A program made the translations under genes and the position numbers. A DNA stretch of 63,363 nucleotides from NCBI RefSeq assembly GCF_014281055.1, contig NZ_JACRSE010000008.1, positions 1 through 63,363 of the forward strand. The letters are read 5' to 3'. Every line of letters begins with the position of its first letter. Positions within the stretch are counted from its first letter, which is position 1. Of the stretch, positions 9,934-44,539 are shown in pieces. Source of the DNA: Fluviispira vulneris. GTDB lineage: Bacteria; Bdellovibrionota_B; Oligoflexia; Silvanigrellales; Silvanigrellaceae. The notes under the pieces were generated by a model that saw nothing but the letters and a program-made list of their open reading frames with translations, ran no database searches and was not told the origin of the DNA.

Positions 9934-10809
9934 ATGGGAAAGATTTTGACTGTAACAATCCAAAAAGGGGGCTCGGGAAAAACAACGTGCGCTGTTAACC
10001 TAGCCTCATGTCTTGCTTATTCTGGAAAAAAAGTTCTTTTGGTGGACCTTGATTATCAAGCAAATGCTACTGAATTGTTGAATGTTCGTAGTCGTGAATT
10101 AAAATCAGAACAATCTGTAGCTAATGCAATTTTAAAAAAAGTTAATTTTAAAAAGTTTGCAGTGAAAACAAATGTAGAGAATTTAGATTTACTACCAAGT
10201 TCGACAGCTTTAGAGGAAATAGTTTTACGTCATACAGGAAAGCCTGAACAGCTTTTCTTATTGGCAGATGTTTTAAATGATGTTCGGAATAGTTATGATT
10301 TTGTCATCATTGATACAAATCCGAATCCTGATTGCCTTTTTCAGTCAGCACTTCGTGAGAGTGATTTTTACTTGGTCCCAATGTTTGCTGAAAACGACGT
10401 GATTGACGGGCTAGCAATGGTTGTTGGCAATGCCGAAAAAATAAAACAATACTACAATTCAAATCTAAAAATGCTTGGATGTGTAATTCAGAAATTCGAT
10501 AAAAAAAGCGCATTCCAATTAGCAGGTGAAAAGCTTCTAAGAAAAATAGGTAATGAAAATGATATCCACATTTTTGAAACTATTATTCCATTTTCTCAAA
10601 TGATTTATGGCGCATCGATGAAACATCAAGCACTAATTATTTATAAAGAAAAAAGCCCAATTTCAAAAGCATATTTGAGCCTAGCTGAAGAAGCTCAAAA
10701 ACAGATTGATTTAGCACAGAAAGAAATTACAGGAGCAACTTCTAAATTAGAAATTAAGAAAGAAAATTACAGTTTAAATTCTATCGAAATAGAGGATCTT
10801 GAAATATGA
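9934..10809 (+). CDS. parA: ParA partition ATPase
   Basis: 291 aa. Deviant Walker A motif KGGSGKTT near residues 10-17, then LLVDLDYQANAT (A') and VIIDTNPNPD (Walker B). This is the MinD/ParA family ATPase that moves plasmid copies apart on the nucleoid together with ParB. AGGAGA lies before the ATG and the stop overlaps the parB start (ATGA), so the two are translationally coupled. There is no N-terminal DNA-binding extension, so it is of the short type, and the promoter would be repressed by ParB through the parS site upstream. Confidence 0.92.
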   Translation: MGKILTVTIQKGGSGKTTCAVNLASCLAYSGKKVLLVDLDYQANATELLNVRSRELKSEQSVANAILKKVNFKKFAVKTNVENLDLLPSSTALEEIVLRHTGKPEQLFLLADVLNDVRNSYDFVIIDTNPNPDCLFQSALRESDFYLVPMFAENDVIDGLAMVVGNAEKIKQYYNSNLKMLGCVIQKFDKKSAFQLAGEKLLRKIGNENDIHIFETIIPFSQMIYGASMKHQALIIYKEKSPISKAYLSLAEEAQKQIDLAQKEITGATSKLEIKKENYSLNSIEIEDLEI

Positions 10810-11636
10810 GTACTATTAGTCAAGCGATTGAAGCTGAAAAATTAAGTAGATTTGCTAGCGTTGTTTCTAATTCTGATAGACTAAATACTGTTTTACTTTA
10901 TGAAAAAGCTGCTGAAGAAAATAAAACGGTGGCTTTAAATGTAAATCAGATAAAATTAAATGAAAATATTAGAAACAGAATTGATATTAGTAAACCTGAA
11001 TTTTTGGATTTAAAGAATAGTATTGCAAGTGAGGGAGTGATCCAGCCAGTTCTAGTTGAGGTTAGGAGAAACATTGATGGTGATGATTTTGAACTAATCG
11101 CTGTCGCTGGTCATAGAAGAATCTTAGCATGCAAAGAACTTGGTATTGAAAAAATTAAAGCTAATCTTAAAGTTTACTCATCTAATTCTTCAAAACGAAC
11201 TGAACATGCTTTAATTGAAAATTTACTACGTGAAGACTTGCATCCTATTGATGTAGCTGAGGGCTACGCTGATCTAGTTGCGCAAGGATGGGATGCTGAC
11301 GACATAGCGAAAAAATTTAGTCGAGATAAAAAATATATTAAAAATATAATAAAAGTTGGTCAGTGGCCAATAAAAGCAAGAGAGTTAATCAAAGAGTTCC
11401 CTGAAAAATTCAGCCTGCGTTCTCTTTGCAATATTTCCAAAAAAAAGTGGGATAGTGAAGAAAAGCTTTTAGACGAGCTTAAATTTATTTGCGGTTTAGT
11501 AAAAGGGGAACGCGTTCCCCCAAGACAAAAAATTACGAGTGAGAAATTTAGTAAATATATTTCTGAAAATAAAATAAGCGATTATGAAAAAAACTTAATA
11601 GAAAACGCGTTAAAATTTTTTGGGTTTAAATTTTAA
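10806..11636 (+). CDS. parB: ParB partition DNA-binding protein
   Basis: 276 aa. An N-terminal ParB/Srx domain (VNQIKLNENIRNRIDI, GVIQPVLVEV, AVAGHRRILACKELGI), the conserved ENLLREDLHPIDVAEGY box near residue 140, and a helix-turn-helix (WDADDIAKKFSRDKKYIKNIIKV). ParB proteins bind parS and stimulate ParA. A parS-like palindrome lies inside its own coding sequence. The gene stops 4 bp before the convergent terL stop, with no terminator visible between them. Confidence 0.92.
   Translation: MSTISQAIEAEKLSRFASVVSNSDRLNTVLLYEKAAEENKTVALNVNQIKLNENIRNRIDISKPEFLDLKNSIASEGVIQPVLVEVRRNIDGDDFELIAVAGHRRILACKELGIEKIKANLKVYSSNSSKRTEHALIENLLREDLHPIDVAEGYADLVAQGWDADDIAKKFSRDKKYIKNIIKVGQWPIKARELIKEFPEKFSLRSLCNISKKKWDSEEKLLDELKFICGLVKGERVPPRQKITSEKFSKYISENKISDYEKNLIENALKFFGFKF
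11505..11520. promoter_or_regulatory. parS: parS-like centromere site, copy 2 inside parB
   Basis: Same GGGGAACGCGTTCCCC palindrome as at 9849-9864, here encoding part of KGERVPPRQ in ParB. The identity extends to flanking bases on both sides. Confidence 0.7.
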
Positions 11637-42874: not shown

Positions 42875-43084
42875 ATGACAATTATTTTTGATAAGAATAA
42901 AGGTTTTATTTGTAATAAATGTGGCAATAATAAATGTATAGAATCAAAAGGTATTTACACTTGCCCTGTATGTAATGATGAATTAGACCATTTTAAAGAA
43001 ATGAATAATAATTTAAAAGGAGAAATAATTAATGATAAAATAAATGAAGCATTAAGAGAAAAACTCTTTCCAAATAAGGATTGA
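42875..43084 (+). CDS. small zinc-ribbon protein
   Basis: 69 aa. Two Cys pairs, CNKC and CPVC, give a zinc ribbon (FICNKCGNNKCIESKGIYTCPVCNDEL), followed by a charged helix. Function unknown. It ends 24 bp before the convergent ParR-like gene. Confidence 0.6.
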   Translation: MTIIFDKNKGFICNKCGNNKCIESKGIYTCPVCNDELDHFKEMNNNLKGEIINDKINEALREKLFPNKD

Positions 43085-43107: not shown

Positions 43108-43386
43108 TTACTTCAGTAAAGATAGAAAATCATTCTTATCTTTTATTACCTCTTGCTTCATATTATCTGCCGTACTAGCACCCTCGACTTTATTTTCTCT
43201 CGACAACATATCTAGCGCATAATTCATTAACCAAATTGCACGGTCTGCCTGAGATTTTTGACCTCTCGGAAAATTAATTTTTGAGCTATTGAACGATGTT
43301 TTAGCATTCTTAATAAAATTTAATACGTCAGAGTTTTCTTCCGAGTCGGGTAGTCTCATTTGATAAAATTTTTTTTCTTCACTCAT
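43108..43386 (-). CDS. ParR-like partner of the actin-like protein
   Basis: 92 aa. It starts within the ParM-like stop codon (ATGA), the order found in parMRC operons. Contains FYQMRLPDSEENSDVLNFIKNAK and RGQKSQADRAIWLMNYALDML, compatible with a small helical or ribbon-helix-helix DNA binder, then a polar tail that could touch the filament. Assignment rests mainly on position and size. It would bind the upstream TGCATAAATA repeats. Confidence 0.6.
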   Translation of the reverse strand: MSEEKKFYQMRLPDSEENSDVLNFIKNAKTSFNSSKINFPRGQKSQADRAIWLMNYALDMLSRENKVEGASTADNMKQEVIKDKNDFLSLLK

Positions 43387-44381
43387 ACAACTGCTACCTT
43401 CACGCTCGAGTTGCCGATATCGATGCTTACATGTTTGTAGTTTGATTTTAGCTTAGAAAGTCCTAAAACAACACTAAACGTATGATCTAAATCTTCAACC
43501 AGCTCGGTCATCAAAATAATGCTATATCCGTTACCTTTTGCGATCTCTTTTAATACTGACATAAATACATGATCTTTTGCTGCTCCCCCAGAGACTACAA
43601 TATTTTTTGCTCTGTCTTTGTAGCGAGCGTTTTTATTTAAAAGCTCGCCAATTACAGAACGTATAAATTGCCTTGCCGCTGTTTCTTTTTCTTTTAAGCA
43701 ATCAATTCTTTTACCGTTCATTCCATTCTTTTCTGGCATGGTTCCTAGCTGCCACGAATTAATCGCTTCACTTGAAGATAAATTTTGTTGATCAGAAAAA
43801 ACTTGGATAGCCCCTGTAAGTCCTTCTACTCGCGCGTACGAATCGGGTAGGTTTTTGCCATCTACTTTACTTGCTTGTTGCCAGTCACCATGGCCTATGT
43901 GCCAGTATAAAAATGTTTTTGCATCAAGTGGAATGTTAAGCATAGACGCTAAAAACTCATACGCAATTGTTGGTTCCTCTTGGATAATAATTTCACAACT
44001 TTTCCAATTTGAGTCCGTAGCTTTGTCTTTAAAACGGATGTTTGCAACTGTTTCTTTAAGGAGGGCTAATTTATTTCTTGCGAGGGTATTATCGCCTACC
44101 TGGTCTCTAAATTGATCCATAAACTGGAAAGGCACGCTCATAGCAAGCGAAACAACATGCGTCCCTTCTCCCAAAGCGCGAGCAAGTCCTGCTTTTAACA
44201 ATGTCTGATAGTGGTCACTCTCTAAAGTACCACCAAAAATGCGTGGGCTATGAGGATTCAGGGTTTGCGCTAACTCTCCGACCACAGTTTCAATTCCCTT
44301 GTCATCAATTACTATTGATTGTTTATTTAGCAATTCCTTTTCTTTAGGTGCTGAGCAGATAAAACTAGGTAGAAATTCCAT
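43383..44381 (-). CDS. parM: circularly permuted ParM/Alp-type actin-like segregation protein
   Basis: 332 aa. Residues 1-95 match the part of ALP/ParM proteins that normally follows the first strand pair (EFLPSFICSAP, TVVGELAQTLN, LAMSVPFQFMDQFR). Connect-1 is EEPTIAYEFLAS (135-146), a phosphate-2-like loop is LYWHIGHGDW (158-167), the adenosine motif is IVVSGGAAKD (261-270). The phosphate-1 motif SIDIGNSSVKVAVV, normally at the N-terminus, is the last 14 residues (319-332). AAAGGAG lies 5 nt before the ATG and an in-frame TAA lies upstream, so no N-terminal copy is lost. The usual Asp of phosphate-2 seems replaced by His161. Likely forms filaments with ATP for segregation. Confidence 0.85.
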   Translation of the reverse strand: MEFLPSFICSAPKEKELLNKQSIVIDDKGIETVVGELAQTLNPHSPRIFGGTLESDHYQTLLKAGLARALGEGTHVVSLAMSVPFQFMDQFRDQVGDNTLARNKLALLKETVANIRFKDKATDSNWKSCEIIIQEEPTIAYEFLASMLNIPLDAKTFLYWHIGHGDWQQASKVDGKNLPDSYARVEGLTGAIQVFSDQQNLSSSEAINSWQLGTMPEKNGMNGKRIDCLKEKETAARQFIRSVIGELLNKNARYKDRAKNIVVSGGAAKDHVFMSVLKEIAKGNGYSIILMTELVEDLDHTFSVVLGLSKLKSNYKHVSIDIGNSSVKVAVV

Positions 44382-44403: not shown

Positions 44404-44539
44404 GCATAAATATTTTAGCTTTAAAGTGTAAAATCTGTTTATTGCATAAATAAACAATAATAAAAGCATAAATATTTATTCTTATAAACATAAATAAATT
44501 TAATTGCATAAATATAGATTTTATATTTATGCATAAATA
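44404..44539. repeat. parC: six TGCATAAATA-type repeats, candidate parC centromere
   Basis: GCATAAATA starts at 44404, 44444, 44466, 44506 and 44531, with a variant ACATAAATA at 44488; spacing is mostly 18-25 bp. The last copy lies in the palindrome TATTTATGCATAAATA (44524-44539). The array is directly upstream of the ParM-like gene, the place of parC in R1-type systems, and probably also covers the promoter. Confidence 0.7.

Follow-up and report, generated by a model that had tools for sequence, protein, structure and literature searches.

A probable naturally permuted ParM-type actin and its putative segregation or positioning cassette on a phage-plasmid-like element

Is the ParM/actin-like gene described here one in which the actin chain has been naturally circularly permuted, and what would its product do? 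The gene, designated M, lies in the window (the whole 63,363-nucleotide stretch of DNA analyzed) and encodes 332 residues (Table 1). The phosphate-1 hairpin of M forms its C-terminus. The N-terminus reads MEFLPSF, in which FLPSF is residues 3–7, and residue 1 of M corresponds to about residue 25–30 of canonical ParM. Taken alone, the claim that M is a circularly permuted ParM-type actin is very likely to be correct. The whole reading, a permuted actin together with a ParMRC-like segregation or positioning cassette, is also likely (probability about 0.68), with the function being inferred.

Table 1. Positions in the window of M, its motifs and the neighboring candidate elements.
Feature	Position	Strand	Basis or remark
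Permuted ParM-like protein M (P0001), very likely	43383..44381	-	ORF, homologues, AlphaFold model
Relocated phosphate-1 hairpin SIDIGNSSVKVAVV, residues 319–332 of M	43386..43427	-	Homologue alignment, rotation tests, sequence
Phosphate-2 loop HIGHGDWQQ, residues 161–169 of M, His for canonical Asp	43875..43901	-	Alignment, sequence
Putative adenosine motif SGGAAKD, residues 264–270 of M	43572..43592	-	Taken to be such by position and family knowledge
Small ORF R, 92 residues (P0002), candidate ParR-like adaptor	43108..43386	-	Downstream of M, 4-nt overlap
GCATAAATA / TATTTATGC repeat cluster, candidate parC-like centromere/operator	44404..44539		Upstream of M; no binding data

The reading frame of M appears sound. 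AGGAGA is found 6 nt 5' of the ATG, and the open frame reaches just 11 codons further upstream before a stop (343 versus 332 residues). A remnant of the form D-x-G-x4-K/R is absent from every frame in the 700 bp upstream of M. M is under strong purifying selection, with dN of 0.05–0.12 among close relatives and dS >2 where it could be estimated. All ten aligned proteins share the permuted order, so it cannot be explained by a mis-called start or by an assembly error; together with the upstream stop, the missing remnant and the rotation tests described below, this also rules out a frameshift. The preliminary description, made from sequence alone, had placed the phosphate-1 strand pair at the C-terminus (residues 319–332) and EFLPSF at the start, and had noted a ribosome site and an in-frame upstream stop; each of these observations held. 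It had given no strand for the ORF, which is confirmed and lies on the minus strand. It had also stated that the permutation would be refuted by a sequencing error joining the tail to a lost N-terminus, which is not borne out, as the homologues come from separate records.

Searches with native-order M revealed homologues with the same order. The first-lineage alignment comprises ten proteins, M included, that share 31–95% identity and come from Silvanigrellales, other members of the window's class and Aeromonas plasmids. The relatives include L002 from IMG/VR (95%), L003 from a Spirobacillus cienkowskii MAG (84%), a protein of the Pigmentibacter ruber plasmid pGTC16762-3 (41%), L012 from a viral contig (40%), L024 and L025 from two genomes of another family in the window's class (35%), and proteins of plasmids from Aeromonas hydrophila, A. 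caviae, A. allosaccharophila and A. media (~31%). D-[IV]-G-N-x3-K is located at or near the C-terminus in all ten, and all ten start approximately at the 'FPS' strand that comes after phosphate-1 in canonical proteins. L024 and L025 have an extra tail of ~30 residues beyond the hairpin. The search for homologues sharing the permuted order, which the preliminary description had suggested, therefore found that order in 10/10 aligned proteins, and it spans two phyla. Relatives of M in the plasmid collection, those on large Aeromonas plasmids among them, are annotated as 'hypothetical protein'. In the A. media plasmid pE31A (L009 1282–3618), the permuted actin gene is split by an ISAs1-family insertion sequence. 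INPHARED phage records contained no detectable relative of the first or second permuted lineage, and PDB sequences, searched with phmmer and with profiles, yielded no true relative; low-scoring receptor matches in the PDB searches were dismissed as chance. A BFVD fold search with M returned actin- and Hsp70-like viral proteins without alignment ranges, so their chain order is not shown.

Moving the tail to the front markedly improved agreement with canonical actins. When the ten-member alignment was compared by hhalign with four canonical ParMs, the score rose from 33.5 in native order to 54.2–54.4 in rotations that left the tail attached to the entire N-terminal region, versus a best score of 39.9 after shuffling of the tail columns (n=100). 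On Pfam ALP_N (PF17989; curated cut-off 26.3 bits), five members scored 18.1, 15.4, 16.0, 20.8 and 18.9 bits in native order and 26.9, 28.0, 32.3, 36.3 and 34.6 bits with the tail first, the match then beginning at profile position 1–2. M itself is the first of these, below the cut-off at 18.1 bits in native order and at 26.9 bits with its rotated N-terminal part. There was no ALP_N match with a shuffled tail. A sixth member, L024, reached only 19.3 bits when rotated, under the cut-off. One caveat is that the rotated ALP_N queries were trimmed to the N-terminal half, and thus their lengths were unequal to those of the native queries. The match of native-order M to PHROG 691, 'partition protein', spans profile positions 40 to 322 of 329.

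The predicted structure of M agrees with a permuted actin in the body of the protein. An AlphaFold2 model, built as a monomer only with six sequences, has a pLDDT of 79.5 and a pTM of 0.74, with just two of five models above 70, and contains a C-terminal strand pair (316–322/327–331). The best Foldseek matches in the PDB were Alp7A, Ta0583, pCBH ParM and Alp12. VIA-align paired residues 5–316 of the model with 31–364 of Dh-cParM1 (Z 17.4, 3.6 A, 280 residues), 5–314 with 28–349 of pCBH ParM (Z 17.3) and 4–314 with 25–325 of Ta0583 (Z 16.6). The model thus has the bilobal actin (ASKHA) fold (Z ~17 over ~280 residues) and lacks the canonical chain order with an N-terminal phosphate-1. Based on the aligned ranges, the body of M runs from strand 3 through the last helix. 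For the first 24–30 residues of the canonical proteins there is no sequential counterpart in the model, and the hairpin of the model is left over. The placement of the hairpin in the first-strand position was not measured directly; it is inferred on the grounds of sequence homology and of the part of the chain omitted by the structural alignment. The termini of ParM are close together in space (PMC6695626). Sequence, homologues and model together show how the segments of M are ordered, that its body has an actin fold and that M is conserved.

The nucleotide site of M is conserved in part. Phosphate-1 residues D321, G323, N324 and K328 are invariant in all ten first-lineage members, as is the SGG of a motif that we take to be the adenosine motif. 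Phosphate-2 is HIGHGDW (residues 161–167) in M, and the first-lineage consensus is [HQ]-[ILV]-G-[HG]-G-D-[WKL]-Q, in which D166 is invariant and the canonical Asp is missing. The D-x-G expected at phosphate-2 is not met by any permuted form (HIGHGDW, QIGGGDW or SIGFGT); the Asp is replaced by His or Gln in the first lineage and by Ser in the second. ATP hydrolysis by M is uncertain because this Asp is missing. On another contig (C9), the window's own genome also encodes a canonical ParM (L027 1501–2460), followed by a small gene, and that ParM retains DIGSCTTD at phosphate-2. In summary of the earlier claims, homologues, rotation tests and the predicted structure of the body all support the circular permutation, and the odd phosphate-2 loop (HIGHGDW instead of D-x-G) was confirmed. 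The structure prediction and comparison with ParM and Alp proteins that had been proposed showed a ParM-like body from strand 3 to the last helix, with the placement of the hairpin remaining an inference. The label 'segregation protein' is likewise only inferred, from the small partner ORF and the upstream repeats; there are no functional data, and ParA and ParB are encoded by the same element.

M resides on what is probably a phage-plasmid of a Silvanigrella-type bacterium, as judged from gene content: the window encodes portal, major head, protease, tail sheath, tape-measure, baseplate and replication-initiation-like genes. By inspection, the ends of the window (63363 / 1) each seem to carry one half of a RuvC-like resolvase gene, which suggests that the window is circular and nearly complete, although the join has no single uninterrupted frame as printed. 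The ParA and ParB genes (9934–11636) constitute a type I partition system. ParA-type genes are also present on sister contigs in genomes G011 and G008 and on Aeromonas plasmids, whereas neither ParA nor a canonical ParM was detected on the 44.8-kb Pigmentibacter plasmid. The Aeromonas homologues adjoin the conjugation genes mobI/mobH. On Aeromonas plasmid pMCR5_045096, the permuted pair is flanked by tra genes on one side and by mobI on the other; a canonical ParM was not detected on this plasmid. pAQU1 and SXT/R391 have their canonical parM/srpM loci in the same slot, albeit, in pAQU1, in a different orientation relative to mobI. The mobI regions of IncHI-type and other plasmids gave no further lead.

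A small ORF is found directly 3' of the actin gene in every permuted locus read. The encoded proteins are very divergent, the small partners match nothing, and a family search with R found no recognizable family. The AlphaFold model of R is poor (pLDDT 62, pTM 0.43). Of 11 copies of GCATAAATA in the window, on both strands, six are within 260 bp upstream of M; in 11 kb each of L002 and L003, all copies (3/3 and 4/4, respectively) are in that same interval upstream of the M homologue. The repeat-bearing upstream region typical of ParMRC is therefore met in the window, L002 and L003, as presence only. L005 and L041 also have repeat pairs upstream, and in several distant permuted members the upstream repeats are weak or not clear. 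A gene for a small CxxC-CxxC (zinc-ribbon-like) protein (window 42875–43084) is convergent with the M-R operon and has a counterpart in L002.

We propose that M is a naturally permuted ParM/Alp-type actin in which the old N- and C-termini have been joined, so that the last helix would lead directly into strand 1, and in which the new termini would fall within the strand 2/strand 3 loop of subdomain IA. It is inferred that the C-terminal hairpin folds back to the first-strand position and supplies phosphate-1 to the nucleotide site, and that M polymerizes with nucleotide. R may bind the upstream GCATAAATA repeats, which would serve as a parC-like site and also as an operator, and may couple DNA to M filaments. 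M-R would thereby segregate or position a low-copy circular element. Taken alone, a DNA-segregation or positioning role for M-R is likely, again by inference, and is favored because the tra-mobI slot is shared with srpMRC/parM and because of the M-R-repeat layout. Partition is perhaps already served, since the element also has ParA and ParB.

Known systems provide the nearest comparisons. The ParM/Alp actins (R1, pSK41 and pCBH ParM, Dh-cParM1, Alp7A; PF17989; PHROG 691) resemble M in body fold, rotated sequence, small downstream ORF and plasmid carriage, but M differs by its C-terminal phosphate-1, the lack of the phosphate-2 Asp and a Pfam score below cut-off when unrotated. The srpMRC/parM loci of SXT/R391 and pAQU1 are like the permuted pair in slot, small adaptor-like partner and upstream repeats (srpC, PMC4489591); srpMRC of SXT/R391, by slot the closest analogue with a demonstrated function, stabilizes plasmids, and its SrpR protein binds DNA upstream of srpM (PMC4489591). 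However, pAQU1 ParM has canonical order, with LDIGYSNLKLAYG at its N-terminus, and the other orientation relative to mobI. It was considered whether the slot-sharing ParM/SrpM family is itself permuted, and this is ruled out for pAQU1 ParM only. AlpC-AlpA-alpS of prophage CGP3 of Corynebacterium combines an actin-like protein, a DNA-binding adaptor and promoter repeats on a phage genome (PMC4446434, PMC5539076). To our knowledge AlpC has not been described as permuted; its sequence was left out of the comparisons here. Like M, FtsA has an actin fold with a non-standard layout, and FtsA 1e4f is among the structural alignments of the M model. FtsA replaces a subdomain, and its first strand pair is not moved to the C-terminus.

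The strongest alternative is that M-R transports phage DNA like AlpC-AlpA, moving excised or replicating phage DNA and leaving partitioning to ParAB. It is a real rival on the window's element because ParAB is present there; that element resembles a circular phage-plasmid, and AlpC-AlpA-alpS has the same three parts as M, R and the repeats, with the repeats in the promoter (PMC5539076). Nonetheless, this role is unlikely, given the M homologues on Aeromonas plasmids beside mobI/mobH and the homologue on the Pigmentibacter plasmid, where neither ParA nor a canonical ParM was detected. It is much less probable that the hairpin is donated to the next subunit, such that polymerization completes the nucleotide site. 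A free C-terminal hairpin could in principle be swapped, and a monomer-only model does not exclude this, but in the Aeromonas members only 2–3 residues separate the last helix from strand 1, favoring fold-back within the chain, and the termini of ParM are adjacent anyway (PMC6695626). There is similarly little reason to regard M as a degenerate ASKHA-fold protein without ATP hydrolysis that serves as a DNA-bound scaffold or a regulator. All permuted members have another residue in place of the phosphate-2 Asp, yet the phosphate-1 Asp/Gly/Lys, SGG and D166 are invariant in ten members, and purifying selection on the gene is strong between close relatives. Finally, an artefact in which an unrelated tail was fused to a protein that had lost its N-terminus has no supporting evidence and is all but excluded by the ten homologues, the upstream stop, the absence of a remnant and the rotation tests.

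The preferred reading thus remains a permuted ParM-type actin with a putative segregation or positioning role. No description of a permuted actin or ParM was found in the open-access literature searched, and the preliminary description knew of no described permuted ParM; PMC6695626 concerns permuted fluorescent proteins fused to ParM. 'Undescribed' is provisional because subscription papers and preprints were outside the search. If confirmed, M would be, as far as we know, the first ParM-type actin described as naturally circularly permuted, and would offer a test, provided by nature, of the chain connections that are required for the actin fold and for its filaments. It would also show that domain models built on canonical order miss such genes, which are left as hypothetical proteins.

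A second permuted lineage consists of two very divergent proteins with a C-terminal phosphate-1. L041 (1486–2499, genome G011 C1; G011 also has L002) starts with MDFFQFPS and ends with LIALDLGNHTTIGFYKEAQIKLN, and its 28% relative L047, from another genus of the family (genome G002 C464), ends with LIADFGNSNTVYSFMI. At phosphate-2 both read SIGFGT-[IV]-E, and each is followed by a small ORF. Plasmid records contained no detectable relative of this lineage. When rotated, L041 scores 30.2 bits on ALP_N, against 22.8 bits in native order and 24.2 bits in the shuffled control; the contrast is less marked than for the first lineage. Even after rotation, the match between the two lineages is weak (probability 40%), and both match canonical ParM better (91–95%), in shallow alignments; independent permutation is therefore allowed, not proven. 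It is possible, as a bolder reading, that actin-like segregation proteins were permuted at least two times independently at the same strand 2/strand 3 loop, once in the HIGHGD lineage and once in the SIGFGT lineage, with loss of the phosphate-2 Asp each time. If true, this would suggest that relocation of the phosphate-1 hairpin is accompanied by an altered nucleotide site and by a filament cycle of another kind. Genome G026 (C991) harbors two neighboring canonical-order ParM-like genes, L049 and L050, with a gene for a small charged protein nearby.
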